Positions 29,088 through 50,113 of a stretch of DNA of 64,000 nt are shown piece by piece. The stretch comes from Geoglobus ahangari. GTDB lineage: Archaea > Halobacteriota > Archaeoglobi > Archaeoglobales > Archaeoglobaceae. The notes beneath the pieces are model-generated. The model searched no databases. It was given only the letters and a program-made list of their open reading frames with translations, and was not told where the DNA came from. A program made the position numbers and the translations under genes. How positions within the stretch are numbered: the first letter of the stretch is position 1; every line of letters starts with the position of its first letter. The stretch covers positions 248,001-312,000 of the forward strand of contig NZ_CP011267.1 of NCBI RefSeq assembly GCF_001006045.1. Direction: 5' to 3'.

Positions 29088-31427
29088 TCAGCTCACCATC
29101 TCTTTCGTCACCTTCTCAATCTCCATTCTCGCCACATACCTCACTCCCGGAATAAGGGAGGCGAGGAGAACGACGAACGTGACAGCTGCCGTCAGAATAT
29201 ACGTCCTCGGATAGATTACGAACGGCATGTAGTACATCTCGCTCTGGAATGACTGAAAGAGCAGTTTCGCCGCGAGGTATCCAAGGGGAATTCCGACCAC
29301 TATCCCTATCACACCGATAACTACAACCTCTATCAGCAGGCTGAAAGCGATCTCTCTGGTTGTGTAGCCGAGCATTCTGAGAGTGGCGATCTCTCGCCTC
29401 CTCTCAAGGACGTTAATCATCGTGGTGTTGAATATTGACGCGAAACCGAGAGATGCGCCAAATAGAAGGGTGAAGTATATGAAGACGTAGAAGAAGGTCA
29501 TTATCTCATCCACATACTCCCTGAGGTCGTCTATCGAGTCCGTTCTTATGCCATCCATATCCGAAATCCTGCCCTTCCCCTGCTCCTCAAATCCCGGCCT
29601 GAATTTAACAAGGAGAGCGTTGAATTCAATGCCTGCCTTTTTGGAGAAGTGGAGGATGTCGGCATAGCATGCTGCGGTTAGGGGCTGGTTGTAGATCTCC
29701 GACACCCTGACATTCATCCTGCCAAACTCAGTGAGGGCTTTCAGGCTTTCCTCTTCGGCCACGCTGAGCTTCGATGCAATTACTTTAGGCATAACAATGC
29801 CCTTGGGCGGAGGGTGGTGCTGCCTTCCCCCAGCATCATAGAGGTTAAGAAGACCCTGATCGTGCCCGATAGCATACAGGGTCGAGCTTTTGGTCACTCC
29901 GCCTTTCTCAAAGACTATCCAGGTCTCAATTACCTTGGCAACCTCCTGAACCTCCGGCATGTTCTTAACAGCCCTGTAAACCTCTGGATCAGACGTGTAA
30001 ATCTTCATGTCATAGGTCGTGATCCTGTCGAATTGAGTTGATATAGCAAAGTCGTTGGCATCCAAGAAGACCATCGACGCCAGAATTAGAGTTACGCTGG
30101 CCGCCACTCCAAGCAGGGAGTAAGCGGCTCTCCGCGGGCTTCTGAAGATGTTTCTGAGAGATAGCTTCGTGAGCATCGAGATTCTGCCCAAGAGCTCGAA
30201 AACCCTATCAAGCCTGATCCTCTTTGCGTCCTCACTCACGCCTCTCATGGCTATAGCCGGATCTATCTTCGACGCTGCATAGGCCGTCGAAATTCCCGCA
30301 ACAAGCGGAACGATCAGGCCTATCGCCAGACCCTGCAGCATCACGTCTCCATGAACTTCCGCAACGTAAAACGGGACGTTCAGCAGCTTTGTGTACTCAG
30401 CAGTCATGAAAATTGAGATTAGGTACCCTCCAGCCACCCCTGTGAGAGACCCCACCACGCCTATAACTGCAGAGTGGGTCAGGTAGTGCAGCAGGATGTC
30501 TTTTCTGCTGTAACCGAGGGCTCTCATAACTGCTATGCTCCCTGTCTGTTCCCTGACCACCCTTGAAAGCAGCACATAGACCATTAATGCGGAAACGAAG
30601 AGAAAGAAGCTCGGAAACATGAACGAGAGCTCTCTGAATCCATCGAGATCCATCTTGACGAGTTTGTTGCTGGGCTGGTCTTCTCTCTTGTAGCTGGCGG
30701 AAATGCCGTAGTCTGCGAAGATTTCCGTAACCCTGTTCAGCACCTCATCCACCCTGCTGTCGTCGTAAACTGTAACGTGAACCTCACTCACCGCGCTGCC
30801 TATCCCAAGAGTGTCTTCAAGCACTTTCTGCGGAACATAGGCTACCCCAAACGTCTTGGGAGTTGTGATCCAGCTTCCGGACTCCACAATCCATATGAAC
30901 TCAGGAGAGAATGCAAGACCTACAACCTTGAGGTTCACCCTTCTCCCGCCGATGTCCACAGAAATACTCTCCCCAACCTTTATGCCGTGGTAGTCGGCAA
31001 ACTTCTTCAGGATGACAGCAGCTTTTTCTTCAGGCTCAGGATACCTGCCCTCGACAATTACGAGCCTGTTTACTTCAAGCTTCTCTGGCAGGGACAGCAG
31101 CTTGAGGGTTATTCTGCTGCCCTCCCTTTCAAACGTGGCATAATGGACAATTCTGCCATAAACCTCCTCAACTCCGTCAATCTTCCTCACCTCAGACAGA
31201 AGACTGGCTGGCGCAGGAGAGGAGGGGTTGAGTATTACCGCAAGATCCTCAAAGTTGGTTTTTTCGTAGAACCTGTCATACGTTTTTCCCAGATTGAGGT
31301 AGGACATGTAGAACGACGTGTATAAAGCTACACCAAGAAAGACCAGAAAGACCACGGCCATGAACTGCCACTTCTGGGCCTTGAGGTCCCTGAATGCCTT
31401 CAGGCTGAGAATCCTTGCGATGCTCAT
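29088..31427 (-). CDS. ABC transporter permease, FtsX/MacB-like
   Basis: A 779-residue membrane protein with the layout of large FtsX-type permeases: one N-terminal helix (residues about 17-37), a big extracytoplasmic domain, three helices around 275-400, then a fourth helix near 440, a second extracytoplasmic domain, and three C-terminal helices with the motif LERRREIATLRMLGYTTREIA. The duplicate LGYSRKDILLHYL occurs near 305. Such permeases move lipids, lipoproteins or peptides or transmit force across the membrane. The start ATG at 31427 follows the ATPase stop by one base. Partner proteins are the ATPase and the CARDB-type surface protein. Confidence 0.88.
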   Translation of the reverse strand: MSIARILSLKAFRDLKAQKWQFMAVVFLVFLGVALYTSFYMSYLNLGKTYDRFYEKTNFEDLAVILNPSSPAPASLLSEVRKIDGVEEVYGRIVHYATFEREGSRITLKLLSLPEKLEVNRLVIVEGRYPEPEEKAAVILKKFADYHGIKVGESISVDIGGRRVNLKVVGLAFSPEFIWIVESGSWITTPKTFGVAYVPQKVLEDTLGIGSAVSEVHVTVYDDSRVDEVLNRVTEIFADYGISASYKREDQPSNKLVKMDLDGFRELSFMFPSFFLFVSALMVYVLLSRVVREQTGSIAVMRALGYSRKDILLHYLTHSAVIGVVGSLTGVAGGYLISIFMTAEYTKLLNVPFYVAEVHGDVMLQGLAIGLIVPLVAGISTAYAASKIDPAIAMRGVSEDAKRIRLDRVFELLGRISMLTKLSLRNIFRSPRRAAYSLLGVAASVTLILASMVFLDANDFAISTQFDRITTYDMKIYTSDPEVYRAVKNMPEVQEVAKVIETWIVFEKGGVTKSSTLYAIGHDQGLLNLYDAGGRQHHPPPKGIVMPKVIASKLSVAEEESLKALTEFGRMNVRVSEIYNQPLTAACYADILHFSKKAGIEFNALLVKFRPGFEEQGKGRISDMDGIRTDSIDDLREYVDEIMTFFYVFIYFTLLFGASLGFASIFNTTMINVLERRREIATLRMLGYTTREIAFSLLIEVVVIGVIGIVVGIPLGYLAAKLLFQSFQSEMYYMPFVIYPRTYILTAAVTFVVLLASLIPGVRYVARMEIEKVTKEMVS

Positions 31428-31428
31428 G

Positions 31429-32133
31429 CTACCACGCCAGCTCTTCCGGCTCCTTAGGCTCCTCATTCACAATGACCCTCGCAACTTTACCATCCCTGAG
31501 GTGGATTACCCTGTCAGCCATCTCAGAAATGACCGAGTTGTGGGTCACAAGGATGAATGTCACGCCCTCATCCCGATTTATCCTCCTCATGACTCCCAGA
31601 ACCATCTTTCCAGTTTCGAAGTCAAGGCTACCTGTTGGCTCATCCGCCAGAATGAGAGGAGGGTTCTTTACGAGCGCCCTCGCTATTGCAACTCTCTGCT
31701 GCTGTCCTCCACTCAGCTCCGATGGGAAGTGCTCTGATCTGTCTTTCAGCCCGACTATTTCGAGAACCTCATCCACATCCCTCGGGTTCTCCACGAGCTC
31801 TGCGGCGAGCATCACATTCTCTCTCGCGGTGAGAGTCGGGATCAGGTTAAAAAACTGGAAGATGAACCCCACATTTCTCCTTCTGTGCATTGTAAGCTCC
31901 TCCTCACTCAGCGAGGACACGTTGATGCCGTTGAAGAGGATGTCCCCTCTCGTGGGGGTGTCAATTCCTCCAACCAGATTCAGCAGTGTTGTCTTGCCCG
32001 AGCCTGAGGGGCCAAGAACGACAACAAACTCCCCCCTCTTAACCTCCAAGTCTATTCCCCGAAGTGCATGCACATCTACGGCACCCATTCTGTAAGTCTT
32101 CCATACATCAACGAGCTTCAGCAGCTCGCTCAT
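31429..32133 (-). CDS. ABC transporter ATP-binding protein, LolD/MacB-like
   Basis: A 234-residue ABC ATPase with Walker A GPSGSGKTT, Q-loop near FIFQFFNLIP, signature LSGGQQQRVAIARAL, Walker B LILADEPTGSLD and the H-loop VTHN. The insert HRRRNVGFIFQFFNL is typical of the MacB/LolD class that works with FtsX permeases. ATG at 32133 overlaps the stop of the preceding gene by four bases. Confidence 0.94.
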   Translation of the reverse strand: MSELLKLVDVWKTYRMGAVDVHALRGIDLEVKRGEFVVVLGPSGSGKTTLLNLVGGIDTPTRGDILFNGINVSSLSEEELTMHRRRNVGFIFQFFNLIPTLTARENVMLAAELVENPRDVDEVLEIVGLKDRSEHFPSELSGGQQQRVAIARALVKNPPLILADEPTGSLDFETGKMVLGVMRRINRDEGVTFILVTHNSVISEMADRVIHLRDGKVARVIVNEEPKEPEELAW

Positions 32134-33617
32134 CTGGTTTTCCTCCTCCACAGGTACCCTCCAGTCAGTAGCACAATCAGCAAAGCAAGAGCCACTATTT
32201 CCTCCATTCTGCTCTCTCCCGGAAACACGTAGACTGAGAACTCCTTCTCAACACTATACCTGTCAAGCTTGGAGTCCATGTACGTTATCACGGCCTTAAT
32301 CTTGTACTCGCCCGGCCTGTCCGGGGCTACGAGGTCGAATGTCGATGTTGCCGAATCTCCCTTTTCGAGCGTGCCTATGAAGTACTGGTTCTTCCCATCG
32401 AATCCCTCCGGCAGGATGAGCTTTACTGCCACAGCCCTTGCATCCTGCTTTCCGGAGTTCTCAATTTGTAAGGAGAGGGTGAACTCTGACGATGGTGTCA
32501 CCTTTCTCGGAGAGAAGTAGAGCCCCGAGACATCGAGGCTTATAACTCCGAGCTCATCAACAAAGATTGAGAAGTCGAAGCTCCTCTCCATCTCTCCACT
32601 ATCATCAGCATACCTCACGGTGAGCCTGAAGGGGTAGCTTCCGCTTTCAGCATCTTTGCCTGCTTTTAACTTGAAGTCCACGCTCGCCTTCTCTCCCCTC
32701 TTCAGCGTTCCCAGAAATGCCTCCTTTTCTCCAGAGAAAACATCAGGATAGCTCAGAGTCAGCAAAACGTTCCTCGCCTCATCCTTTCCCGTATTTTCCA
32801 AGGTCAGGCTCAGAACAAAGTCATCATCAGGATAGATTCTCTCCGGAGCTGTCGTAAAGCCTGAGAAGGAAATCTCAGCCCTCCCCTCAACAACGATGGC
32901 GAACTGAATCTCCTCCCGATAGGCGTTCCCCAGCCTGTCGGTGAAGCTGAAGATCAGGTTTGCGGGATAAACTCCAACTGAGACATCCTCGCTTGCCGAG
33001 ATGTTGAAGCTCAAACTCCTGACCTCCTCACCACCCCATCTGTCAAAGCTCATCCTCGATGTTTCGACAACAAACCCGTCTGGAGCTGAGAGGGTTGCCA
33101 CGACGTTCCTTGCCACCCCTCCACTGTTCTTCACTTCAAAGGTGACCTTTCCACATCCACCGGGCTCTATCACCGGCTGGACTACGTTTTCAACAACCAT
33201 CGACGGCCTGTCAACGACAACTACTGGAACCACCTCTTCCAAGCTCCCGGTTCCGTAGTTGTAGCTGAGCCTGACCTTCACCTGATACACACCCTCTTCA
33301 TCTGCCCTCAGCTTGACCGACGTCAGGGCAGAGCCAGCGACGTCTCCGAGGTTGATGGTCAGATACGAAACCTCCTTTCCATCCGAGATTATCGCCAGAT
33401 CATCTTCATTTTCCGACACGGTCAGCTTCGCATCCCTGATCGCATATCCCGAATTTACAACGACGATCTGCAGCACGAAGATGTCTCCCGGCGATGGAGC
33501 TTCAGGCAGAGTGCTGTAATTCAGAGACAGCACCGGCTGTGCTGAAACTGCGCCCACAAACAGTTCCGCAAGTATAACCAAAATCAGAAACAGCATTCCA
33601 GACCTCACTTTCTGCAC
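32130..33617 (-). CDS. Secreted CARDB-like repeat protein (COG1361-type S-layer domain)
   Basis: A 495-residue exported protein: signal sequence at residues 8-27 ending near VSAQP, then three or four Ig-like beta-sandwich repeats (for example IVVVNSGYAIRDAKLTV, VKNSGGVARNVVATLS, LENTGKDEARNVLLTLSYP, IENSGKQDARAVAVKLILP), and a C-terminal anchor helix VALALLIVLLTGGYLWRRK. This is the COG1361 archaeal surface repeat type. It is placed between the TetR regulator and the ABC genes and so probably acts as the external partner of the exporter. Starts at GTG 33617, overlapping the regulator by 13 bases. Confidence 0.85.
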   Translation of the reverse strand: MQKVRSGMLFLILVILAELFVGAVSAQPVLSLNYSTLPEAPSPGDIFVLQIVVVNSGYAIRDAKLTVSENEDDLAIISDGKEVSYLTINLGDVAGSALTSVKLRADEEGVYQVKVRLSYNYGTGSLEEVVPVVVVDRPSMVVENVVQPVIEPGGCGKVTFEVKNSGGVARNVVATLSAPDGFVVETSRMSFDRWGGEEVRSLSFNISASEDVSVGVYPANLIFSFTDRLGNAYREEIQFAIVVEGRAEISFSGFTTAPERIYPDDDFVLSLTLENTGKDEARNVLLTLSYPDVFSGEKEAFLGTLKRGEKASVDFKLKAGKDAESGSYPFRLTVRYADDSGEMERSFDFSIFVDELGVISLDVSGLYFSPRKVTPSSEFTLSLQIENSGKQDARAVAVKLILPEGFDGKNQYFIGTLEKGDSATSTFDLVAPDRPGEYKIKAVITYMDSKLDRYSVEKEFSVYVFPGESRMEEIVALALLIVLLTGGYLWRRKTR

Positions 33618-34141
33618 CTCCCTTTCACGAATTCAATAATAACTTCTCCAATCTCGTCAAGGTCGAGATTTGGGACGAAGAGAGAGTAAACGTAAACACC
33701 ATCGAGCATCGCCATGAAAACCACTGCCGTTTCCCTCGGCCTTTTCACGCCCATCTCCTCGAAAAGCCCCGTTATGAATCCAAGCATCTCATCATAGAGC
33801 GCCTTTGTGAACGCCGTATCGCCTGAGAAAAGCTCCTTCTCGAAGACATAGTACCACAGCATTGTGAGCTTCGGATTTTCCCTCGCAACTCTCAGCGACT
33901 CTCGGACTATCCTCTCCAGCACTTCTTCATCTCTCGACTCCTCAAAAACCCATGAGAAGTACTTTTCCACGGAGTACCTCACCAGCTCCTTCTCAAGCCC
34001 GTCCTTGCTCCCAAAGTGGTAGAAAACCGTACCCTTGGACACGCCCGCCTCCCTCGCAACCTCATCCATCGTCACGGCATGGGGCGGTTTGGACGTGTAG
34101 AGCCTGAGGGCCGCCTCGAGTATGGCAACTCTCGCATCCAT
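33605..34141 (-). CDS. TetR/AcrR-family repressor
   Basis: A 178-residue TetR-type regulator. The helix-turn-helix is VTMDEVAREAGVSKGTVFYHFGSKDGLEKEL (residues about 23-53), with a ligand domain of helices after it. It heads the operon regulator-CARDB protein-ABC ATPase-FtsX permease. A palindromic operator lies directly in front of its start codon, so it most likely represses its own operon and is released by a small molecule. Confidence 0.92.
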   Translation of the reverse strand: MDARVAILEAALRLYTSKPPHAVTMDEVAREAGVSKGTVFYHFGSKDGLEKELVRYSVEKYFSWVFEESRDEEVLERIVRESLRVARENPKLTMLWYYVFEKELFSGDTAFTKALYDEMLGFITGLFEEMGVKRPRETAVVFMAMLDGVYVYSLFVPNLDLDEIGEVIIEFVKGRCRK

Positions 34142-34234: not shown

Positions 34235-34822
34235 ATGCGAAAGCTCAGGCTCCACACCACAGTCTCCCCAGAGACCCAGAGAAAGATAGAGGAGCTGAGG
34301 GAGAGGTACAGGACGGTCAGCGGGGTGATAGAGGCTGCCGTGGAAAAGCTGTTCACGGACTCAGGAGGAGAGAGCATAACCGAGGACGACCTCCTTCTGC
34401 TGAAGTTCGTCAGGGAGCTGAACTTCACGGTCTGTGCGAAGGATCACTACACGGGGCTCGCTGAAGGAGTGCCTGAGAGGGCTGTGAGGGAGAGCATGAT
34501 CGAGATGGCCATAAAGTACCTCACGAAAAAGCCGCTTAGCGAGCTGGGACTTGAGGAGTTTCTGGAGAGCCTGAGGAGGCTGTGGCTCATTCTGAACAGA
34601 GCGGAGCACGTGGAGATAGAGAGGCTCGGAAAGAGCATAAACTTCGTTTTCTACCACGACATGAGGAGCATCAGGGTCTCGGAAATCCACCTCGGGCTCG
34701 TCAGGTTCGTCTACGAGAAGTACTACTCCGGAGACTACGAGATGACGGTTGATGCAGTAACCGTGAACGGCTTCTCCGTGATATTCAGGAGGAGAAGTCA
34801 GGATCGTCCAGATCGCCCGTGA
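34235..34822 (+). CDS. Conserved protein with N-terminal ribbon-helix-helix-like region
   Basis: A 195-residue protein. Residues 1-43 (MRKLRLHTTVSPETQRKIEELRERYRTVSGVIEAAVEKL) fit a ribbon-helix-helix DNA-binding unit. The remainder is alpha/beta without a recognised family, including a helical part about 55-125 and a C-terminal beta-rich part ending FSVIFRRRSQDRPDRP. The ATG at 34235 is used; upstream open frame overlaps the tetR promoter. A TATA-like AAGTTTAAG is at 34204-34212. Convergent with the Fe-alcohol dehydrogenase gene, overlapping its end by 38 bases. Confidence 0.55.
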   Translation: MRKLRLHTTVSPETQRKIEELRERYRTVSGVIEAAVEKLFTDSGGESITEDDLLLLKFVRELNFTVCAKDHYTGLAEGVPERAVRESMIEMAIKYLTKKPLSELGLEEFLESLRRLWLILNRAEHVEIERLGKSINFVFYHDMRSIRVSEIHLGLVRFVYEKYYSGDYEMTVDAVTVNGFSVIFRRRSQDRPDRP

Positions 34823-35960
34823 TTGCCTTCTCCAGCAGAGCGAACAGCTCCTTCCTCCTCACAGGTCTCGGATTTCTGAGGACGTGCTTCTCACTCGCAA
34901 ACGTCCTCTCGACGATTGAAGGAATGTCCCTCTCGGTCACACCAAGCTCGGAGAGGTTTGACGGAACTCCCAGCTCGTCCAAAAACTCTGCAAACACCCT
35001 GCCAACAGCTATTGCCACGTTTCTCACATCCCTCTCGTCAGCATTCGCTCCGAAAGCTCTTGCAATCGTGGCATGCTTTTCCGAACAGGCGAAGGAGTTG
35101 TACTGCAGGACGTACGGCATAGTAACAGCGACGGAGATGCCGTGAGGTTTGCCGTGAAGCGGGGCATGAGCATAGCCGAGGGCGTGGCCGAGGACCGTCC
35201 CAGCGTTGTTTATCGCCATTCCGGCAAAGAGTGAGGCGAGGGACATCCTCTCCCTACCATCCCTGCTGTTCTCAGACGGGACGAGCGGTAGGCTTTCTAC
35301 AGCATACTCCATGGCCCTCATGGACAGCATCTCGGTGAATGGGTTAGAGACGAGCGAGACGAGGGACTCGATCGCATGACACAGCGCATCAAGACCCGAG
35401 CTTACCGTTACGGACTTTGGTAACGATAGCGTTAGCTGGGGGTCAACTATCGCAACGTCGGCCTGAAGCGCGCTGCCCTCAAACACCCTCCTGACCTCAG
35501 AGCCCTCAAGCTTCACGACCGCGAGATTTGTCACCTCCGAGCCAGTTCCGGCCGTTGTCGGGCACAGAACAAGCCCGTATTCCCTTTCCGACACCTCAGC
35601 ACCGGAAAACTCTGATAGAGGTTTGTCGGAGTGGGATAAGCCTGCTGCGAGCTTTGCCACGTCCAGAGCGCTTCCACCGCCCACGCCGATCACCACATCG
35701 TACCTCCCATCCCTTACCGCTTTCCTCGCCATCTCCACCAGCCTTTCATCCGGTTCTGGCGTTACACTACTCCAGACGTCCACATGCACCCCCTCAAGCT
35801 GTGGAAGCACGTGCTTCGGAACCACTTGCCTTCCAACGTTCCTTCCGGTGATGATGATCGCCTTTCCTCCAAACCTCCCGGCAATCTCCTCGAGCTCTTC
35901 GATGGCATTCCACCCGAAGATTACGTCTCTGACCGACGAGACTCTGAACCTCAAGCCCAC
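34785..35960 (-). CDS. Iron-containing (type III) alcohol dehydrogenase
   Basis: A 391-residue Fe-dependent NAD(P) alcohol dehydrogenase. The NAD site GVGGGSALDVAKLAA is near residues 92-106, and the metal ligands are in SSGLDALCHAIES (Asp, His), GHALGYAHAPLHGKPHG (His residues). TTAGTGSEVTNLAV is also typical. It is the last gene of a six-gene minus-strand operon and probably oxidises an alcohol or reduces an aldehyde formed by the TPP enzyme. Its GTG start overlaps the TauE gene end by ten bases. Confidence 0.92.
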   Translation of the reverse strand: MGLRFRVSSVRDVIFGWNAIEELEEIAGRFGGKAIIITGRNVGRQVVPKHVLPQLEGVHVDVWSSVTPEPDERLVEMARKAVRDGRYDVVIGVGGGSALDVAKLAAGLSHSDKPLSEFSGAEVSEREYGLVLCPTTAGTGSEVTNLAVVKLEGSEVRRVFEGSALQADVAIVDPQLTLSLPKSVTVSSGLDALCHAIESLVSLVSNPFTEMLSMRAMEYAVESLPLVPSENSRDGRERMSLASLFAGMAINNAGTVLGHALGYAHAPLHGKPHGISVAVTMPYVLQYNSFACSEKHATIARAFGANADERDVRNVAIAVGRVFAEFLDELGVPSNLSELGVTERDIPSIVERTFASEKHVLRNPRPVRRKELFALLEKAITGDLDDPDFSS

Positions 35961-36682
35961 ACCCCCGAGTATCTCACCACAAGCACGAGCGAGGATGCAA
36001 GGACGACCGACAGAACCGCTTTCCTGAGACTGTGGCTGTCCATCCTCCCGAGCAGCCTCCTGCCAGTTAGATGTGCGAGGAAAACGGCAGGCGAGAGGAT
36101 GGCGAAGATCCTGACGATCTCCCAGCTCATGTACCCAAGAGCGATGAAGAGGAGCAGGATGAGCGTGTCAATGATGATCAGGTACGCGATTATGAAGGAT
36201 CTTATGAACTTCGCATCGTAACCCTGATTGCTCAGGGCGAGAACTATTTGCGGTCCGTTGACCCCGGTGAGAACTCCCATCAGCCCGCTGATGAGGCCAG
36301 AGAAGAACAGCAGCGGCCTTTCCCTTCTGACCTCAAACCTCACACCTCTCATCATGAGGGCCGAAAGGGCAGCCATTCCCGCCCCTATTCCGAGCCCAAT
36401 CAGCCTCTGCGAGAGGGCACCAAACAGTGCCATTCCCGCCATTATTCCAGCAAACCCCCCTGCATAAACCTCTCCCAGTCTTAGCGTGAGCCTCTCCCTG
36501 AGCAGGAAGTTTAAGTTTATCAGGGACTCGAGCAGGATCATCAGAACCACCACGTCCTTGGGAGGAAGAAGGTTCGACAGGAGAGGGGAGAGCAGGATCG
36601 CGCTTCCAAAGCCCGTGACGACGCGGACGTTGAAGGCCAGAAAGACGAGTGGGAAGAGAAGCACAAGCGCATAGGTGTCCAT
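35951..36682 (-). CDS. TauE/SafE-family membrane exporter
   Basis: A 243-residue membrane protein with about eight helices. The motif pair TGFGSAILLSPLL near the N-terminus and GLISGLMGVLTGVNGPQIVLAL in the second half is the internal repeat of the TauE/SafE family, which exports sulfite, sulfoacetate or related organic anions. The RBS GGAGGG directly precedes the ATG at 36682. Lying in an operon with a TPP enzyme and an Fe-alcohol dehydrogenase it may release a small acidic product. Confidence 0.85.
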   Translation of the reverse strand: MDTYALVLLFPLVFLAFNVRVVTGFGSAILLSPLLSNLLPPKDVVVLMILLESLINLNFLLRERLTLRLGEVYAGGFAGIMAGMALFGALSQRLIGLGIGAGMAALSALMMRGVRFEVRRERPLLFFSGLISGLMGVLTGVNGPQIVLALSNQGYDAKFIRSFIIAYLIIIDTLILLLFIALGYMSWEIVRIFAILSPAVFLAHLTGRRLLGRMDSHSLRKAVLSVVLASSLVLVVRYSGVWA

Positions 36683-36701
36683 TCCTCCCTCCACCTGCAG
36701 G

Positions 36702-37607
36702 TCACCCTTCCAGTGTTCTGAGGAATCTGAGCATCCCGAGTATCTTCTCTATCCTCTCGACGAGCATCTCCGACTGATCCCTGTCGTAGCTGTAAATCCC
36801 CCTGCCGGTCTTTACCCCGAGCTCTCCCCTCTCCACCTTCTCTACGAGCCAGTCGGGGATCGCTATCCTCTCCCCCGTGGAGCTGAGGTACTTTGAGACG
36901 AGCAAAATCGTGTCGAGGCCCACGTAGTCGAGGTTTCCGAGGGGACCGAAGAGCGTGTACAGTATTCCGAGGTGGTACCTCCACACCGTGTCTATTTCCT
37001 CGAACGACATGCCGTCGCTCTCCATCATCCTCTCCGCCTCAGCAAGCACGGCTGCGCTGAACCTGTTCACGGCAGACTGCTCCCTGCAGACCACCACCCT
37101 CTTCCCTATGCCCCTCAGAAACTCCGCAACCCTGCCCGCAACACCTTCGTCAGTATATCTGGACGTCACAACCTCAACGAGGGGCATCACGTGGGGCGGG
37201 TTCATCCAGTGAACCCCAAGAAATCTCTTCTTCCTCTCCAGAAACCCGGCAAGGTCGCTCACCCTGATGATGGACGTGTTCGTGCAGACTGGCGCGTTCT
37301 CACCTACAACAGCCTCGATGTCCCTCAGAACCCTGCCCTTCAGCTCCACATCCTCCGGAACTGCCTCAAAGGCGATGTCTGCAGCGTCACCATCCTCGAT
37401 CCTCGTCGTGAACGTTATCCTGTTCAGGACGCTCCTGTCCGCCATTCCGTGCTTCTCGAGGGTTTTCAGTGAGAGCTCTATTCCCCTCCTCGCCCTCTCC
37501 AGCGCATCCTCGCTCACGTCGCAGAGCACAACCTCCTCAACTCCCCTGCTAACTTCGACCGCTATGCCCTGCCCCATCAGGCCGGCCCCAACCACAAGCG
37601 CCCTCAC
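36702..37607 (-). CDS. 3-hydroxyacyl-CoA dehydrogenase
   Basis: A 301-residue NAD enzyme of the HbdA/FadB type. The NAD fold starts VVGAGLMGQGIA, and the catalytic motif is in LGVHWMNPPHVMPLVEVV (His-Glu pair); the C-terminal domain has SAVNRFSAAVLAEAERM and GLDTILLVSKYL. It oxidises 3-hydroxyacyl-CoA or a related beta-hydroxy acid. In this operon a beta-hydroxy acid intermediate is likely. Adjacent genes overlap or nearly so, so it is co-transcribed. Confidence 0.85.
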   Translation of the reverse strand: MRALVVGAGLMGQGIAVEVSRGVEEVVLCDVSEDALERARRGIELSLKTLEKHGMADRSVLNRITFTTRIEDGDAADIAFEAVPEDVELKGRVLRDIEAVVGENAPVCTNTSIIRVSDLAGFLERKKRFLGVHWMNPPHVMPLVEVVTSRYTDEGVAGRVAEFLRGIGKRVVVCREQSAVNRFSAAVLAEAERMMESDGMSFEEIDTVWRYHLGILYTLFGPLGNLDYVGLDTILLVSKYLSSTGERIAIPDWLVEKVERGELGVKTGRGIYSYDRDQSEMLVERIEKILGMLRFLRTLEG

Positions 37608-38569
37608 GCTCCCACCTCTCTTTTTAGGGTTTCCACGTGGTCCTTTACCATCTTCTCAGCGCTGTCGAACTCGATCTGCCAGCCCACATCCTCGATCCTT
37701 CCAAACCTCTCGACCATCCTCTCCCTGAGGGCGAGTTCAGTCAAAGCAGCCCACTCCCCCGCTATCCTCATCGAAGCATCATCCACCTCATTCTCAACAA
37801 TAGCGTCTGGAACCACCCTCTTCAGGCTGCTAACGAGCTCTCCAACCGAGACAACCACACCGCCCACGATGTAGATGTCCCTGAGCTTTCCGTTGTGGCT
37901 GATTAGAAGCCTGAGTAGCCTTGCGGCATCCCTGACATAGAGGAGCGGAATTCTGGTCTCCAGAGGGAGCCTCACGACCCCCTTGCCTTCGAGCACCGCA
38001 CTGTCGATGAGGGACGAGATCGTAACCGAAGCACCCTCGCCCCTTCTGTAGGGCCCTGTGATGATCGGGAACCTCACCGCAGAGAAGTCGAGACCGTGAG
38101 AGCTCGCATAGTACGAGCCGACTATCTCCGAGCACGCCTTCGTCACCCCGTAGAACGTGGCCGGGTCTCTGAAAGAGGTTTCGCTGACGGGCATGCTCCT
38201 CAGGCCAAAGACGGAGAGGCTGCTCGTGAAAACAACTCTATCGACATCAAACATCCGTGACAGCTCGAGGACATTCAAAGTCGCCTCAACGTTCGTCCTG
38301 AAGGACTCGATCCTCGACCTCTCGGCCCTGAGCGACAGGTCTGCTGCCGTATGAACAACAGCATCAATCTCGTGGGTCTTGAAGACCTCGGCCAGATCTG
38401 CCCAAGACGTGACGTTACCCTCAACCAGATCCACCCTGTCCTCGTATCCCCTCAGCCTCGTCAGGTCTAAGCGCAAGTCCATCAGAATCGGCCTCTCACC
38501 TCTATCGCAGAGCTCCCTCGCCAGAAATGAGCCGAGAAAGCCGGTTCCTCCGGTGATGAGGACTGCCAT
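37604..38569 (-). CDS. NAD(P)-dependent epimerase/dehydratase (extended SDR)
   Basis: A 321-residue extended short-chain dehydrogenase. TGGTGFLGSFLA (residues 6-17) is the nucleotide-binding loop and the active-site pair is in TFYGVTKACSE (YxxxK) preceded by the serine in FTSSLSVFG. The family includes sugar epimerases, dihydroflavonol-type and 3-beta-hydroxysteroid-type reductases. Its start overlaps the stop of the TPP enzyme gene. Substrate unknown. Confidence 0.85.
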   Translation of the reverse strand: MAVLITGGTGFLGSFLARELCDRGERPILMDLRLDLTRLRGYEDRVDLVEGNVTSWADLAEVFKTHEIDAVVHTAADLSLRAERSRIESFRTNVEATLNVLELSRMFDVDRVVFTSSLSVFGLRSMPVSETSFRDPATFYGVTKACSEIVGSYYASSHGLDFSAVRFPIITGPYRRGEGASVTISSLIDSAVLEGKGVVRLPLETRIPLLYVRDAARLLRLLISHNGKLRDIYIVGGVVVSVGELVSSLKRVVPDAIVENEVDDASMRIAGEWAALTELALRERMVERFGRIEDVGWQIEFDSAEKMVKDHVETLKREVGA

Positions 38570-40224
38570 CAGCCCTCAACTCCCGAGAGCATGTAGGCAA
38601 GCGGGGACATCTCCTCACGGGAGATGCGCACGTCTATCACCGCAGGCATCCCCGACTCGACAGCCCTCCTGATCGCCTCGGTGAGCTCGCCCTTCTTCTC
38701 CACCAGCTCTCCATAAGCTCCGAGGCTCTCTGCGAACTTGTCGTACCTCGCGTTCTCGTTGAGCAGCGTTCCAAAGCAGGCCCTCTCCTTGGAGCCCGTT
38801 GAAAGGTACCGGGTGTGGCACACCATCCCCCACGCGCTGTCGTTGGCGACTATGACGATTATCGGCAGCTCATGTCTCACCGCCGTCTCTATCTCCACGC
38901 CGTTGAACAGGAAGCTCCCATCTCCCGTGACCACGAAGACCCTCTTCTCGGGAAATGCCGACTTCGCTGCTATTCCCATCGGCACCCCAGCTCCGAGGTG
39001 GCCGAGCTCCCCCTGAGAGTTGAAGACGTTCCCAGCCCTCTCTGCCTTCAGAAGCAGCAGTCCCCACGCTGTGGTCTCTCCACCATCCAGAACCACTATG
39101 TCGTCTCTCGTAATGAGGCTCGAGAGTTCGAGCATCATCTCCTGAGGCTTCAGCATTCCGTTTTCGGAGGCTGGCCTGACAAGCATCTCCATCATGCCCT
39201 TGGCCATCTCCCCGAACTCCTTAGCCCAGTAATCAAACCTCTTTATCCCATTCGCTCTCTCCAGCAGCCCGCTCAGGAATGCTTTGGCATCGCTGACAAC
39301 TCCCAGATCCACGTACCTGTTCTTCCCTATCTGGCTCCAGTCTATGTCCACCTGAATGATCCTCGCCTCATCCGAAAACAGGCCCACACCAAAGCCGAGG
39401 AAATCATCGAGCCTCGTTCCGATCACCATGACCAGATCCGCCTCCTTCAAAAGCACGTTGCCCGGCGCTGGGCCAGCGTAGAGGGGATGGGTGGTTGGTA
39501 TTGTGCCAAAAGCCATCCCGTTAACCGCCACGGGAATCGAGAGTCTCTCGGCCAGCATCCTCAGCTCCTCCTCAGCCCCAGACCAGTAAACCCCGCTTCC
39601 CGCAACAATTACCGGCTTTTCTGCAGAGTTCAGCATCTCAATTGCTCTATCAAAGAACCTGCTCTCGCACACTATCCTACCGGTGTACCTGTACCTCTCC
39701 GGTGGAGCGAGCTCAACATCGTTCTCAACCTCGGCGTTCAGCACATCCTTCGGAATCTCGAGTAAAGCCGGCCCGAACTTCCCGCTCAGCGCGTGCCTGA
39801 AGGCCTCCTGCACGTACTCGTGGAGCCTTTCCGGAAAGATGGGCATCTTCGACCACTTCACGTACCTCTCAACCCACCTCGCCCCTTCAATCTCCTCAAA
39901 CGCGTTCCTGTCGAGGTTCTCGAACTTCGAGTGACCTGAGATGGCGACAATGGGGCTTCCCGAGTAGTAGGCCTGCGCCAGAGCGGGCATTAGGCTCGCG
40001 AGCCCCGGGCCGGTCGGAACTATCGCAACCCCGGCATTTCTCGTAACCCTCGCGTAGCCCTCGGCCATATTCCCCACAGCCTGCTCGTGCCTCGCGAAGA
40101 TTACATTCACTCCTTCATCCCTCAGATGCTCGCACAGGGGAAGAATCTCACCGCTCGGAAGTGCGAACACGCTCCTTACTCCCTCGTTCACAATCACCTT
40201 TGCAACAAGCTCTGAAGCTTCCAC
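38569..40224 (-). CDS. Thiamine-diphosphate enzyme (acetolactate synthase-like)
   Basis: A 551-residue ThDP enzyme of the acetolactate synthase / benzaldehyde lyase / 2-hydroxyacyl-CoA lyase superfamily. The catalytic glutamate is in FARHEQAVGNMAEGYARV (about residue 44), the central FAD/ADP-like domain has VIVAGSGVYWSG, and the ThDP motif is GDGSFLFNGVEIETAVRHELPIIVIVANDSAWG. I prefer the GTG at 40224 (VEASELVAKVIVNEGV), which follows an AAGGGGG ribosome site. It does not look like a plain IlvB because the regulatory partner is absent, so a carboligase or lyase on a hydroxy- or oxo-acid is likely. Confidence 0.8.
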   Translation of the reverse strand: MEASELVAKVIVNEGVRSVFALPSGEILPLCEHLRDEGVNVIFARHEQAVGNMAEGYARVTRNAGVAIVPTGPGLASLMPALAQAYYSGSPIVAISGHSKFENLDRNAFEEIEGARWVERYVKWSKMPIFPERLHEYVQEAFRHALSGKFGPALLEIPKDVLNAEVENDVELAPPERYRYTGRIVCESRFFDRAIEMLNSAEKPVIVAGSGVYWSGAEEELRMLAERLSIPVAVNGMAFGTIPTTHPLYAGPAPGNVLLKEADLVMVIGTRLDDFLGFGVGLFSDEARIIQVDIDWSQIGKNRYVDLGVVSDAKAFLSGLLERANGIKRFDYWAKEFGEMAKGMMEMLVRPASENGMLKPQEMMLELSSLITRDDIVVLDGGETTAWGLLLLKAERAGNVFNSQGELGHLGAGVPMGIAAKSAFPEKRVFVVTGDGSFLFNGVEIETAVRHELPIIVIVANDSAWGMVCHTRYLSTGSKERACFGTLLNENARYDKFAESLGAYGELVEKKGELTEAIRRAVESGMPAVIDVRISREEMSPLAYMLSGVEG

Positions 40225-40237
40225 ACAATTCACCCCC

Positions 40238-41467
40238 TTAAAAGTCCTCAAGCTCCCTGCCCTTTGTCTCGGGCAGGAGCCACGGAAGGATTACCATTAG
40301 CGCGAAGGCTATTCCGCCGAGAAGCATTCCGTAGATGAGCTCCGCGAAGGTTGCGATGTACCCGACTATGAACCCCCCGAACGACAGGCCCCTCGCAACG
40401 CTGAATATCACCGACGTTGCGGTTGCGCGGTACTTCGTAGGAAACAGCTCGCTGCTCCAGACTCCAAAGAGGGCGTGAGATCCGAAGCCCAGCGGGATTA
40501 TGAACAGGCTCAGCATCGCCATAGAGGGGTTGAAGTCAACCAGAGTGAAGTAGCCCAGCATCAAACATCCAAGCAGGCCGAGAAGGGCAGATGCTGCGAA
40601 GCTCAGCCTCCTTCCGATGTAGTCGCTTATGAGCCCGACGAACGGCAGGATGATGAGCGCGACAAGGGAGATCTTCATAACCAGCTTGCTCGCCTCTTCT
40701 GGGGGATAGTTGAACTGCCTGATTATGAAGGTGGGCGACCAGTCAACTATCGCGTGGTAGGCAAATTCAGCAAGCCAGAAGAGGAACGTGCTCAGGATCA
40801 TTAGCTTCAGGTAGTAGCGGTTCCCGAGTATCTCCTTCAGCTTCATCTTGCTGACCTCTTCCTCGGCGGAGTGCTTCTCCCATATCCTCGATTCCGGAAG
40901 GTAGCGGGCGAAGAGTATCAGGAAAGGTATCGGGTAGAGAGTCACGAGGAAGCAGGCCCTCCAGCCGTAGAGCGGGTAGATGTAGGAGACAGAAAGGGCG
41001 GAGATTATGAAGCCGAAGATGAAGGTCGCGTGGATGATTCCGCCAAACAGCCCTCTCCTCTTGGGAGAGTAGACCTCGGAGATGTATGTGAACGCGAGCC
41101 CCCACGTCACACCCATGCCCGATATCAGCCTCAGGGCTGCGAGAGTCCAGAAGTTTGGTGCTAAAGCGGAGAGGACGCTGAACACCACGACCCACAGAAT
41201 CGACAGAATGAGGGCGTTCTTCCTCCCGAACCTGTCCCCCAGCTCCCCGAACAGCATCGCACCAAAAATGCAGAGGATGTACTGGGCGGAAAAAACGAAC
41301 CCCACCTCGAGCGTCGAGACTCCGAACTCCTTCATTATCGGCTCTGCCAGAAAGTTGAGAAGCGTTAGGCCAACAGCATCGTGGCTCCAGCCTATTGCAG
41401 CGGCGATGAGAACTATGATCTTCTCGTTCCTCGTAAAGTGCACGTGCCCGCGGGCGTTAACCTCCAT
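40238..41467 (-). CDS. MFS transporter (organic acid/sugar porter type)
   Basis: A 409-residue major facilitator with 12 helices. Motif A is GELGDRFGRKNAL after helix 2 and GLISDYIGRRLSF in the second half, PESRIWEK follows helix 6, and PETKGRELEDF ends the protein as in the sugar/organic-acid porter branch (ShiA/benzoate-like). It is the first gene of the catabolic operon, so it probably brings in the substrate. Its promoter contains a palindrome. Confidence 0.88.
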   Translation of the reverse strand: MEVNARGHVHFTRNEKIIVLIAAAIGWSHDAVGLTLLNFLAEPIMKEFGVSTLEVGFVFSAQYILCIFGAMLFGELGDRFGRKNALILSILWVVVFSVLSALAPNFWTLAALRLISGMGVTWGLAFTYISEVYSPKRRGLFGGIIHATFIFGFIISALSVSYIYPLYGWRACFLVTLYPIPFLILFARYLPESRIWEKHSAEEEVSKMKLKEILGNRYYLKLMILSTFLFWLAEFAYHAIVDWSPTFIIRQFNYPPEEASKLVMKISLVALIILPFVGLISDYIGRRLSFAASALLGLLGCLMLGYFTLVDFNPSMAMLSLFIIPLGFGSHALFGVWSSELFPTKYRATATSVIFSVARGLSFGGFIVGYIATFAELIYGMLLGGIAFALMVILPWLLPETKGRELEDF

Positions 41468-41498: not shown

Positions 41499-41543
41499 AT
41501 TTATGCAAAATCCTGCACACTCGTGTTGATGGAATGGGCAATA

Positions 41544-44475: not shown

Positions 44476-45579
44476 TTACTCCTTCTTCTCCTCTTCAGCC
44501 TTCCCTTCCTCGGCCTCGCACTCCTCGGTCTTCGGGTTGTATGGGTGGATCTTGACCTTGAAGTCGCAGAGCTTCTGCACGATGTTCAGCTTCGCCTCTG
44601 CAGTTTCTATGTAGCCCTTCTCGAGCATGTAGTCGTAGATCTTCTTTGCGGTCTCGCTCCTTATGAGCACGGTCGAGAACCCGGCCTTGCTCCCAACACT
44701 TCCGACGCTCACGTCGGCCTCTATCGCTGAGAAGTCCTGACAGACGTGACATCCGCTCGGGACTATCTCCTCCATCTCCTTGACAGAGATCGTGAACTCG
44801 GAGCCGTCTTTGAACGTGACTATGAAGTTGCCCTTCTTGATGTCGGTCTTGACCGCGTTCTTCAGGTCAGCACCCCTCTCCTTCAGGAAGTCGTAAAGCT
44901 CGTGCCAGTAGAAGTTCTCAGTGCAGAACAGCCCGACCGCAAGCTTGACCTTCTTCTTGTAGAGGGGAACCTTCTCCTGAAGCTTCCTGAGGCCTGAGAT
45001 CATGCAGGGCGTGCCGATTATGCCGACGCTGTCAACCCTCCTGATTATCCTGTGGAGCTCCGGCATGACGTTCGCGTAGCTGTACTTCGTACCCGTAATG
45101 CGCTGGTCGAGAAGCTCGTCGGGGGTTCTGACGTGCACGACGTATGGCCTGAACATCTCGTCCCTCGCGACAAAGAGGGCGACCTCTATCTCGCCCATCT
45201 CCAGTGCGGTCGCCATGAACTCCGAGACCATGGCACCGTCCTGCCCGACGAACCTCTTGGACTTGCCCGCAACCGCCTCAATGTACTCTCCAAGGCCGCT
45301 TATGGGCTGGTAGTTGTACCTCGGGCAGACTGCAACGCACACACCGCAGCCCATGCACCCCTTCTTCGGGTCGAAGTCCACGGGTCTGTCCTCGAGGATT
45401 ATCAGGTCAACGGGACAGATAGTGCACGTTCCGCAGTGGCTGCATATCCCGGCATCCACAACCTTTTCCTTGAGCAGCCTGTAGCTGCTTGACCTGTCCG
45501 GCTTCTCAGCGTACCTCAAACACGGCAGATCCTCGAGCTCCTTGAAGTCTATGCTGACCCATCCCTTAGGAATCGTCAT
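44476..45579 (-). CDS. fqoF: FqoF, F420H2-oxidising subunit of the Fqo complex
   Basis: A 367-residue FrhB/FpoF-type flavoprotein, the electron entry point that oxidises reduced F420. Two [4Fe-4S] motifs CSHCGTCTICP and CMGCGVCVAVCP lie in the first quarter, then the FrhB domain with RITGTKYSYANVMPEL and IGIIGTPCMISGLRKLQE, and CHVCQDFSAIEADVSVGSVG near the end, binding FAD and F420. The tail is acidic/lysine-rich (GKAEEEKKE). ATG at 45579 overlaps the fqoI stop by four bases. Last gene of the operon, as in A. fulgidus. Confidence 0.93.
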   Translation of the reverse strand: MTIPKGWVSIDFKELEDLPCLRYAEKPDRSSSYRLLKEKVVDAGICSHCGTCTICPVDLIILEDRPVDFDPKKGCMGCGVCVAVCPRYNYQPISGLGEYIEAVAGKSKRFVGQDGAMVSEFMATALEMGEIEVALFVARDEMFRPYVVHVRTPDELLDQRITGTKYSYANVMPELHRIIRRVDSVGIIGTPCMISGLRKLQEKVPLYKKKVKLAVGLFCTENFYWHELYDFLKERGADLKNAVKTDIKKGNFIVTFKDGSEFTISVKEMEEIVPSGCHVCQDFSAIEADVSVGSVGSKAGFSTVLIRSETAKKIYDYMLEKGYIETAEAKLNIVQKLCDFKVKIHPYNPKTEECEAEEGKAEEEKKE

Positions 45580-46322
45580 TTGCTCACCTCCTCCCTGACC
45601 GGAGCGAGAACGAGAACCTCGGTCGGGCAGATCCTCACGCAGATGCCGCACCCGGTGCACTTCTCGAAGTCTGTTGTGAGCGAGACCTTCGTTCCCTCAA
45701 GCTTTGAGGATATCGCATCAACGGGACAGGAGAACATGCACAGCCTGCACCCTATGCAGTTCTCCGGGTTCTCCGGAATCGCGTAGAACTTCGGTCTGTC
45801 CGGCTTGTCGAACTCCACCGTGAGTTCTTCCCTCTCCTTCCTCTTTATCAGCTTTATGTCGCCCTCGAAGTCGTACTCGACCGTCTTCTCGTCCTCCCTC
45901 ACGACCTCGGGCACGTTCTCCATCTGATCGGGAGTTACCTCCATCGACTCAACGTCCTTGAACGCCACGTCGTGGATCTTCGACGGCTTGAGTGCCGCAG
46001 TAGGGCAGGAGTCAACGCAGAAGTGGCAGAGGATGCACTTTGCGTAGTCAACACCCGGGTAGTACCTGCCCTTGTCGTCGGGGTACATCTGAATCGCGTT
46101 CGCAGGACATATGTGGGCGCACCTGAAGCAGCTTATGCAGTCCTCCTTTTCAAAGAGGATTATGCCCCTGAAGTTGTCCGGCAGCTTCCTTCTCTCCCTC
46201 GGGTAGTGAATGGTGATCGTGCCCGGGTTCACAACCTCCTTCGCCACCTCGGTGATTGCCCTCAGATGGCCTATAGCGCTCCTAACCAGATTCTTCTCGG
46301 GAGGTTTCACAACCTTAACCAT
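45576..46322 (-). CDS. fqoI: FqoI, iron-sulfur subunit with four [4Fe-4S] motifs
   Basis: A 248-residue NuoI-like protein. CISCFRCAHICP and CILCHFCVDSCP form the usual two-cluster domain; a second pair, CIGCRLCMFSCP and CTGCGICVRICP, is near the C-terminus after an acidic linker. It therefore has twice the clusters of standard NuoI/FpoI and may extend the electron wire from FqoF. ATG at 46322 starts inside the end of fqoH, with 16 bases overlap. Confidence 0.88.
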   Translation of the reverse strand: MVKVVKPPEKNLVRSAIGHLRAITEVAKEVVNPGTITIHYPRERRKLPDNFRGIILFEKEDCISCFRCAHICPANAIQMYPDDKGRYYPGVDYAKCILCHFCVDSCPTAALKPSKIHDVAFKDVESMEVTPDQMENVPEVVREDEKTVEYDFEGDIKLIKRKEREELTVEFDKPDRPKFYAIPENPENCIGCRLCMFSCPVDAISSKLEGTKVSLTTDFEKCTGCGICVRICPTEVLVLAPVREEVSK

Positions 46323-47422
46323 GCCACCCACCCCGCTGATATGAACAGAGCTATCAGCGCCATTGACATTATCACGCTCCACCCCATCTTCAGCGTCTGG
46401 TCAAGCCTGTACCTCGCGTAGATTGATCTCGCAAGGGAGACGACGCACATGAATACGATCGTCTTTATGTAGAGCCAGATGACCGGAGCGAGGTCGCCGA
46501 GCGGTGCTATTGCAGGCCCGTTCCACCCGCCGAAGAACAGTATCACCGAGAGCATTGACAGGAGGTAGAGCTTCTCGTACGGGAGCATCATCGTCAAACC
46601 GAAGAGGATTCCGGAGTACTCAACATACGGCCCGAACGCGACCTCCTGATCGGCCTCAGGTATGTCGAAGGGGAGCCTCGACGTGGCTATGAGGACAGTT
46701 ATGAAGAACGCGAGGAAAGCTATCGGATTGATGAACACTCCGGGAATGCTCTGCTTGGCGACGATCTCGAACGGGTCTGCGGTCTGGTAGATCAGTATCA
46801 TCGCAACCACTGCGAGTATGAACGGAATCTCGTAGGCGAAGTACATGAAGGCCTCTCTCACGCTTCCGATGTAGGCGAACTTGCTGTTTGATGCCCACCC
46901 CATCGCGATTATGAAGACTGGGATCAGGGAGATGAGCGCCATTGCTATCGGAATGGCGTAGAGGCTCTTGATCCCATACGTTCCTCCAGCCGGCAGGAAC
47001 AGGAGGGGTAGGAGCACAGGTAGGAACGAGATGAGCGGGAACTGCAGGAAGTAGAACGCGTGCGCATCCCTGTGGACTATGACCTCCTGGAAGAAGTACC
47101 TCATACCGTCCGCGAGGGCCTGTATGACTCCTCCTGTCCTCCTCGACACCTCCTTCGGCCCGACCCTCCACTGAACTCTCGCAGTTATCTTCCTCTCGAA
47201 GTAGATTATGAACAGCAGAACGAGAGTCAGGCCAATCATCCCTGGGAGTATCAGAACGTGAAATATGGGCTTCCACAGCAGGAACGCGACGAGGACGTTG
47301 AGGAAGGGTATGTCGAGCAGCCTTTCCACAAGCGGGTTTATCGCCGGTATGTTCACGAGGTTCTTGGTGAATGTGCTCAGGATCTTCTCGAGGAGTATGA
47401 AAACCACATTCTCTTCAGCCAT
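46307..47422 (-). CDS. fqoH: FqoH, NuoH-like membrane subunit
   Basis: A 371-residue NuoH homologue that connects the hydrophilic arm to the membrane proton pumps and forms part of the quinone site. The signature FERKITARVQWRVGP and the loop EAFMYFAYEIPF and RLPFDIPEADQEVAFGPYVEYSG are present, with about eight helices. Confidence 0.95.
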   Translation of the reverse strand: MAEENVVFILLEKILSTFTKNLVNIPAINPLVERLLDIPFLNVLVAFLLWKPIFHVLILPGMIGLTLVLLFIIYFERKITARVQWRVGPKEVSRRTGGVIQALADGMRYFFQEVIVHRDAHAFYFLQFPLISFLPVLLPLLFLPAGGTYGIKSLYAIPIAMALISLIPVFIIAMGWASNSKFAYIGSVREAFMYFAYEIPFILAVVAMILIYQTADPFEIVAKQSIPGVFINPIAFLAFFITVLIATSRLPFDIPEADQEVAFGPYVEYSGILFGLTMMLPYEKLYLLSMLSVILFFGGWNGPAIAPLGDLAPVIWLYIKTIVFMCVVSLARSIYARYRLDQTLKMGWSVIMSMALIALFISAGWVAWLRL

Positions 47423-47433
47423 TTCTCACCACC

Positions 47434-48669: not shown

Positions 48670-49757
48670 TTTCCATCACCTCCCACGTAGACCTCGGGCT
48701 CAAGCTTGAAGTCCTTCCTGAGCGGGTTCTTTGGCGTGTCTGGCGCCAAGAGGAAGTTCTTGCCCATCCACGGATTGCCATCGAACCACACGCCGAAGAG
48801 GTCGTGCAGCTCTCTCTCAAGGTAGTCGGCTGAGGGCCACACCTCGATCATGCTCGGGAACATAGCGTCCTCCCTGTCAATTTCCGAAACAAGGGTGACG
48901 AGCAGCCTGACAAACTCGGGCTTGAGGTAGCTCGAGACCGTATACTCAACTATGAACTTGTTCTCGTGCGGAACATCGATAACGTTTACAGACTTCACGT
49001 GGTCGAAGCCAGCTTCGAGCATCCTCTTTCCAGCTTCCACGAAGTCGTCCTTCTCCACCCTCGCGCTTATCCTGTACCTGCCGGTAATCGTCACCTTCTT
49101 GGCAAGCTCTCCGAGGATGTCGGAGACCTGCTTTCTGAGCTCCTCGCCCTCCTTCCACTTCTCGCTCCTGTCTATGTCCACAACAACGGACGGATTCTCG
49201 GCCACATACTTGGGGGAGGGCGGAACCCTCTTGGGCCTCTTCTTCCTCTTCTTCTCGCCCTCGACCTCCTCCCTCCGGAGGATCGGATAAACGATGGTGT
49301 TCTTCGCCTCTCCAGTTACGATTTCGTCCTGAAGTGCCCTGAAGCACCTCAGAAGCGACTCAGGCGTTGGCGGACATCCGGGAGCGAAGTACTTCACAGG
49401 AACGACCTCGAACGGCTTCACCATGTGGTAGCCGTTCCAGAACAGGCCGCCCTTTATTCCGCAGACGCCCATCACTATGACGAACTTCGGATCAGGCATC
49501 TGCTCGTAGGTCATCTTGAGCACTCTCGCCATCTTCCTCGTTATCGCACCCTCAACAACGATGCAGTTCGTCTGTCTGGCCATTCCGAAGTTCAGAACGC
49601 CAAGTCTCTCTCCATCGTAGCCGCTTGCAAAGGCGTGTGCCAGTTCAACACCGCAGCACGCGGTAACGAGGTGAGTTGGCCAGATACTCCACTTAGTCCC
49701 CCACTTCTTTATCGGTGCGAGAGGACCCTTATGCAGGAATTCGATCATCTCATCCAT
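48666..49757 (-). CDS. fqoBC: FqoBC, fused NuoB/NuoC-type subunit
   Basis: A 363-residue fusion. Residues about 1-150 are NuoB-like, with N2-cluster cysteines in TACCGVELAHAF, GVCGIKGGLF and GCPPTPESLL; a lysine-rich linker (GEKKRKKRPKR) leads to a NuoC-like domain ending SADYLERELHDLFGVWFDGNPWM. The same fusion is known for Archaeoglobus. ATG 49757 overlaps fqoA by eight bases. Confidence 0.95.
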   Translation of the reverse strand: MDEMIEFLHKGPLAPIKKWGTKWSIWPTHLVTACCGVELAHAFASGYDGERLGVLNFGMARQTNCIVVEGAITRKMARVLKMTYEQMPDPKFVIVMGVCGIKGGLFWNGYHMVKPFEVVPVKYFAPGCPPTPESLLRCFRALQDEIVTGEAKNTIVYPILRREEVEGEKKRKKRPKRVPPSPKYVAENPSVVVDIDRSEKWKEGEELRKQVSDILGELAKKVTITGRYRISARVEKDDFVEAGKRMLEAGFDHVKSVNVIDVPHENKFIVEYTVSSYLKPEFVRLLVTLVSEIDREDAMFPSMIEVWPSADYLERELHDLFGVWFDGNPWMGKNFLLAPDTPKNPLRKDFKLEPEVYVGGDGK

Positions 49758-50112: not shown

Positions 50113-50113
50113 C

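Follow-up and report, generated by a model that had tools for sequence, protein, structure and literature searches.

Degradation of cyclohexane-1,2-diol in Azoarcus is a pathway in which dehydrogenases produce a vicinal diketone, the thiamine diphosphate (ThDP) enzyme cyclohexane-1,2-dione hydrolase cleaves it, and the resulting aldehyde is oxidized. Among other ThDP enzymes, benzaldehyde lyase has a Trp-Gly pair in its cofactor loop and His29 near the cofactor, and glyoxylate carboligase has Val in place of the catalytic Glu. Here, we compare these systems with a six-gene operon of the archaeon Geoglobus ahangari, found at 34785-41467 on the minus strand of a 64,000-nucleotide stretch of its genome (assembly GCF_001006045.1, contig NZ_CP011267.1, positions 248,001 to 312,000). 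This whole stretch is called the window, and coordinates refer to it unless another locus is named. A preliminary description had called the genes a catabolic operon of unknown substrate, and this stands as the likeliest description. With moderate confidence, at about even chances, we propose that the six genes act as one unit, induced for the breakdown of a single small organic acid that bears hydroxyl groups.

The six open reading frames (ORFs) run head to tail, as had been described, with gaps of -14, -1, -4, +7 and -10 bp from first to last, and all six family names pass the Pfam cut-offs. The first gene encodes a major facilitator superfamily (MFS) transporter (40238-41467; 409 aa; MFS_1, 156.6 bits), the proposed importer of the substrate anion. 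It is followed by the ThDP-dependent enzyme (38569-40251; 560 aa as listed; TPP_enzyme N/M/C, 114/129.5/112.6 bits), proposed to be a C-C lyase or decarboxylase releasing an aldehyde, an extended short-chain dehydrogenase/reductase (SDR) (37604-38569; 321 aa; Epimerase, 126.2 bits) and a 3-hydroxyacyl-CoA dehydrogenase (HCDH)-family enzyme (36702-37607; 301 aa; 3HCDH_N/3HCDH, 163.2/57.6 bits). The last two genes encode a TauE/SafE-family membrane protein (35951-36694; 247 aa), a proposed exporter of the anionic product, and an iron-type (group III) alcohol dehydrogenase (Fe-ADH) (34785-35960; 391 aa; Fe-ADH/ADH_Fe_C, 127.1/134.5 bits), a proposed aldehyde reductase. The earlier inventory of six genes held, but it had missed a conserved seventh gene, a convergent regulator-like gene at 34235-34822 on the plus strand (195 aa), and it probably placed the ThDP start (TTG, 40251) 27 bases upstream of the true one. 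GTG at 40224 is favored because of alignment with orthologues, and the MFS/ThDP overlap would then become a 13-bp gap. A promoter and terminator scan gave no more matches than shuffled sequence did.

The grouping is conserved within the Archaeoglobaceae. SDR relatives at E <= 5.9e-90 were found in nine of 294 genomes of the phylum, a patchy distribution, and the next matches were at E about 1e-30. The nine are the window genome, one congener and all seven listed members of a second genus. All of them keep the six genes in identical order and orientation, and the complete seven-part set, regulator included, is kept in order in every genome having it (9/9). Since the same six-gene order recurs in eight further genomes of two genera, the grouping goes beyond chance, supporting the earlier view of one functional unit. 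Identities between the window proteins and those of the eight other genomes were 79-82% for MFS, 60-64% for ThDP, 48-53% for SDR, 50-56% for HCDH, 51-56% for TauE and 46-47% for Fe-ADH. The MFS transporter is, therefore, the most constrained part of the operon.

Relatives of the module were also found in Asgard archaea. GTDB species genomes were scanned with two narrow peptide patterns, which may have passed over divergent modules in bacteria, and this revealed one further archaeon outside the Archaeoglobaceae. It is a Heimdallarchaeota genome (L068) with ThDP, SDR and HCDH genes in series and a gene for tungsten aldehyde:ferredoxin oxidoreductase (AOR) divergent from them. The scan matches L069-L076 had no SDR, HCDH or MFS relative adjoining the ThDP gene at E <= 1e-4. 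Across 195 Asgard-phylum genomes there were 23 places with a ThDP protein at least 41% identical to the Heimdall protein (E <= 1.4e-110), and the surroundings of 20 of these were examined, L068 included and G329, G412 and G470 left out. SDR and HCDH relatives stood beside the ThDP gene at 10 of the 20 loci. An MFS gene was also present at nine of these ten, AOR lay near the module at six (the AOR gene of L100 is split into two frames), and TauE and Fe-ADH relatives occurred at none. Three arrangements were seen: ThDP-SDR-HCDH in series (L068, L093-L095), an MFS-ThDP pair divergent from SDR-HCDH (L099, L100), and the same two pairs convergent (L101-L104). None of these equals the Archaeoglobaceae gene order; therefore, the link is more than one inherited operon layout, which argues for selection on the gene set. 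Identity matrices of the four proteins (MFS, ThDP, SDR and HCDH) correlated at r = 0.92-0.98, to which shared ancestry contributes, and 0 of 999 label permutations gave values as high. The four genomes of the class of G322 contained no new module. Plasmid records, which served solely for named reference enzymes, gave 33.1% identity at the best listed place.

The ThDP enzyme has the three TPP domains, catalytic Glu and GDG...N motif of the ThDP-decarboxylase superfamily. Glu56, this motif, H418, W474 and H479 are invariant in all 19 module sequences, and Glu56 sets them apart from glyoxylate carboligase, since E. coli Gcl has Val there. The highest NCBIfam bit score was obtained with the IlvB equivalog TIGR00118 (350.3 bits), which would fit a plain acetolactate synthase paralogue surrounded by neighbors of unrelated function. 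This explanation is extremely improbable, however: the score misses the cut-off of 538.35, an IlvB-type gene of its own (L001) is present in the genome, and the module loops read GHLG and NDxAWG versus GTMG and NNxxLG in IlvB. In a tree of 54 rows, a single clade (support 100/100) united the 19 module enzymes with 8 Asgard paralogues, and archaeal and E. coli IlvB formed a separate one (98/98) that excluded the module. The firm grouping with IlvB, which the preliminary description had named as speaking against its reading, did not occur. Neither did the enzyme prove to be the sulfoacetaldehyde acetyltransferase Xsc, another of the families proposed for comparison, as it scored 267.8 bits with TIGR03457 (cut-off, 676.4). 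Xsc, Gcl, PoxB, AlsS, IolD and benzoylformate decarboxylase all branched elsewhere. Because the tree program flagged long branches among the references and unusual composition in certain rows, we relied solely on the splits that define the module and IlvB clades. SDR and HCDH trees from short searches gave the same sub-groups, and an HCDH tree with three outgroups did not show the Heimdall-type set joining the other module rows. Because the Archaeoglobaceae ThDP rows join those of G322 and G330 (99/94), inside the Asgard module rows, the tree suggests transfer between the two phyla. At position 35, which lies beside the cofactor, the Archaeoglobaceae and four Asgard rows have Glu, whereas the four Heimdall-type rows have His and two other rows have Ser. 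Since this residue varies by sub-group, substrates may differ between the sub-groups.

The nearest well-supported group outside the module clade consists of oxalyl-CoA decarboxylase (Oxc), 2-hydroxyacyl-CoA lyase (HACL) and a set of bacterial proteins (99/97), and among solved structures Oxc and HACL enzymes likewise match the ThDP enzyme best (228 bits). Both fit a CoA pathway, in which the ThDP enzyme would be a 2-hydroxyacyl-CoA lyase yielding formyl-CoA and an aldehyde and HCDH a true 3-hydroxyacyl-CoA dehydrogenase. The catalytic set of the HCDH family (Ser112, His133, Glu145 and Asn181) is likewise retained, being invariant in 19 of 19 sequences, and a PaaK-type CoA ligase (440 aa) lies directly upstream of the MFS gene at L058, L059 and L060. 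We nevertheless consider this pathway unlikely. The ThDP enzyme scored 270.9 bits with the HACL model NF058623, whose cut-off is 600, and sits outside the Oxc/HACL pair. The conserved core has no CoA ligase or transferase, and the PaaK-type ligase is missing from six of nine Archaeoglobaceae loci; present at three of nine only, it was rejected as a pathway member. The family name 3-hydroxyacyl-CoA dehydrogenase in the preliminary description was upheld by Pfam, by the NAD domain and by the C-terminal domain with the Ser/His/Glu/Asn set, yet it names the family only and a CoA substrate is putative. The nearest solved chain, PDB entry 1zej, reads the same by eye as the module HCDH of L059, which makes 1zej a solved example of the operon's HCDH enzyme. 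It was deposited as a 3-hydroxyacyl-CoA dehydrogenase, named by homology, and no functional paper on it was found in a literature search. Its source is presumably Archaeoglobus fulgidus, in which we take the operon genes to be AF2013-AF2019, hbd-9 among the names. For GAH_00328, such a CoA route seems to be assumed in the paper on the G. ahangari genome, which lists it as a likely beta-oxidation dehydrogenase (PMC4600277). By gene counting, GAH_00328 is probably the module HCDH gene, and its module context speaks against a role in simple beta-oxidation.

The remaining enzymes also retain their active sites. The SDR has the glycine-rich NAD motif and YxxxK of extended SDRs, with Tyr140 and Lys144 invariant in 19 of 19 sequences; its nearest named families are L-threonine 3-dehydrogenase (PDB) and D-erythronate dehydrogenase (NCBIfam, below cut-off). 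In Fe-ADH, D191, H195, H259 and H273 are invariant in 9 of 9 sequences, and we take the Asp and three His to be the metal ligands of group III. The best solved relatives of the MFS transporter (GlcP, OCT/OAT and SV2) were uninformative, and assigning its substrate from structures was rejected. TauE passed PF01925 (61.9 bits; gathering score, 32.6), and sulfite transport by it is only putative. The presence of a TauE family member had led to the hint of sulfonate breakdown, in which MFS would import a C2 or C3 sulfonate, the ThDP enzyme would yield sulfoacetaldehyde, Fe-ADH would reduce this to isethionate, and TauE would export sulfite or a sulfonate. The best Fe-ADH model in NCBIfam, although below threshold, was indeed the sulfoacetaldehyde reductase SarD (NF050025; 214 of 700 bits), and a glycyl-radical enzyme occurs in 16 of 19 module genomes. 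However, ErcA (212.1 bits) and lactaldehyde reductase (203.6 bits), also below threshold, scored about as high as SarD for Fe-ADH, and the glycyl-radical enzyme of the window genome matches PFL2 (2f3o, 1236.6 bits) far above isethionate sulfite-lyase (7kq3, 385.4 bits). The 19 module genomes were searched for Xsc, the SuyB/UxaA C-terminal domain and glycyl-radical lyases (ComDE, TauD, SuyA and sulfite reductases were left out): Xsc was above its cut-off in none and a SuyB/UxaA-type domain was found in three. The lack of TauE and Fe-ADH at all 10 Asgard module loci also counts against this route, which is very unlikely. The hint was dropped and the sulfonate reading rejected, since no consistent desulfonating enzyme was found among the types searched.

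The convergent regulator gene was found in nine of nine genomes and encodes about 187-195 aa, with 59-64% identity to the window protein; in the window it overlaps the 3' end of Fe-ADH. Its N-terminus resembles a ribbon-helix-helix (RHH) sequence by eye and is mostly below a per-residue model confidence (pLDDT) of 70. The mean pLDDT of the AlphaFold2 model was 74, and no Pfam family was matched at E <= 0.001. For the C-terminal part, all 15 Foldseek matches at E <= 0.001 were H-NOX domains, weak at template modeling (TM) scores of 0.31-0.39, and the highest Z from VIA was 8.1, with values of up to 7.5 for other folds. An H-NOX-like fold would be a weak lead and is not claimed here; no V4R-named row was among the structure matches, which excludes nothing. 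The MFS promoters of orthologues carry an operator-like palindrome, TTATGCA-N8-TGCATAA or close to it. In seven of nine genomes this 22-mer (up to 3 mismatches) had a single occurrence, which lay at the MFS promoter. A reversed-pattern control gave 0 occurrences. Distant relatives of the regulator (39-45% identity to the window protein) adjoin other catabolic clusters of Archaeoglobaceae (loci L128-L133). By gene names read by eye, five of these have acyl-CoA ligase, thiolase, MaoC and acyl-CoA dehydrogenase-like genes. At L131 (G012; 2249-8815 of that locus), an RHH-type regulator is accompanied by AOR, a LarA-like racemase and a glycyl-radical enzyme with its activase, and this neighborhood of a related regulator counts in favor of the catabolic reading. 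The glycyl-radical enzyme there passes the general TIGR01774 model only.

A transporter, two dehydrogenases, the ThDP enzyme and an aldehyde enzyme recur together, which leads to a reading as uptake, oxidation, cleavage and aldehyde conversion. MFS would import the substrate anion, and SDR and the HCDH-family enzyme would oxidize its hydroxyls with NAD(P) to a 2-oxo acid, acyloin or vicinal diketone. The ThDP enzyme would then cut the activated C-C bond, by decarboxylation or by acyloin or diketone cleavage, giving an aldehyde that Fe-ADH would reduce in Archaeoglobaceae and tungsten AOR would oxidize in Asgard archaea. TauE would export the anionic product, and the convergent regulator would act at the palindrome in the MFS promoter. 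These steps come from family chemistry, from which neither the order of the two dehydrogenases nor the reaction direction can be read. Fe-ADH at all nine Archaeoglobaceae loci and AOR at the six Asgard loci lend support to the aldehyde intermediate proposed earlier. PMC12247030 describes C-C cleavage by cyclohexane-1,2-dione hydrolase and also ligation as common among ThDP superfamily enzymes. Since dehydrogenases are reversible too, a biosynthetic unit would be conceivable, in which two small molecules are joined to an acyloin by the ThDP enzyme, SDR and HCDH turn this acyloin into a diol by reduction, and MFS and TauE export the product. We judge this quite unlikely, as the AOR neighbors oxidize aldehydes, no recurrent biosynthetic gene was seen beside the module, and catabolism better accounts for a regulator at the locus and for the patchy occurrence.

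Several points weigh against the catabolic reading. No operon enzyme passed an equivalog cut-off in NCBIfam, and any single step could differ. The direction of MFS transport is not readable from sequence, and the two dehydrogenases and ThDP enzyme could run reductively or carboligate. AOR was not near four of the ten Asgard modules; the L102 contig ends early. The SDR-HCDH pair is missing from 10 of 20 Asgard ThDP loci, which are paralogue clades, and the tie to the module therefore does not extend to the entire ThDP clade. Finally, the palindrome was not found at 3 mismatches in the window genome and G170; the MFS promoter of the window retains the right half only (TTTTGCATAA; position 41501-41522, minus strand).

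A broader proposal is possible, and we put it forward tentatively: an undescribed archaeal pathway shared between Asgard archaea and Archaeoglobaceae by exchange. Its ThDP enzymes, a new clade of lyases, would split a two-fold oxidized hydroxy acid to an aldehyde for tungsten AOR or Fe-ADH, and its control would lie with a new regulator class joining RHH and an H-NOX/V4R-like sensor. The same combination in two archaeal phyla with different aldehyde partners points to a real pathway and not a chance operon. If the catabolic reading is right, some Asgard archaea would gain a defined carbon route, and their tungsten aldehyde oxidoreductases would be tied to a concrete aldehyde-forming reaction. 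It also suggests that beta-oxidation, under which 1zej was solved and GAH_00328 was listed, is not where these two belong. A. fulgidus is culturable and bears the whole operon, making the question directly testable. No published description of the operon came up in literature searches that used locus names, family pairs or PDB codes, in agreement with the earlier statement that no described pathway with this exact set was known, and the main texts of two A. fulgidus transcriptome papers (PMC3949148, PMC4543118) do not mention the AF201x genes.

Other features were seen around these loci. Where the SDR-HCDH pair is lacking in Asgard archaea, classical SDR copies, small membrane proteins and NAD-kinase-like genes occur at L107, L110 and L111, and zinc alcohol dehydrogenases at L107, L109 and L111. 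The sister ThDP clade of L107, L110 and L111 is a putative second undescribed ThDP cluster. G322 and G330, which have the closest Asgard modules, also have a second ThDP paralogue without other module genes (L096, L097), which shares 60% identity with the G322 module enzyme. In the window, ABC-type permease and ATPase-like ORFs, a secreted repeat protein and a TetR regulator lie in series at 29088-34141, kept apart from the operon by the regulator gene. Complex I/F420H2 dehydrogenase-type subunits adjoin the operon at 44476-54696 and are probably GAH_00337-00347 of the genome paper.

Compared with known systems, the module ThDP enzyme shares the three-domain architecture and catalytic Glu of IlvB and Xsc but misses both cut-offs and branches separately. 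Oxc and HACL are the nearest solved structures and form the neighboring clade, but the module differs in lying below the HACL cut-off, outside their clade and without a conserved CoA-activating gene. Benzaldehyde lyase/formolase belongs to the same superfamily (196/194 bits) and has the same catalytic Glu and Trp-Gly pair in the cofactor loop; its His near the cofactor contrasts with Glu, His or Ser at position 35 of the module enzymes. Cyclohexane-1,2-dione hydrolase (2pgn) is distant in sequence, with 162.8 bits versus 228.1 for the best match of the module enzyme, and to our knowledge it has no link to MFS, SDR and HCDH. Nevertheless, the cyclohexane-1,2-diol pathway of Azoarcus follows the same logic as that proposed for the G. 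ahangari operon.

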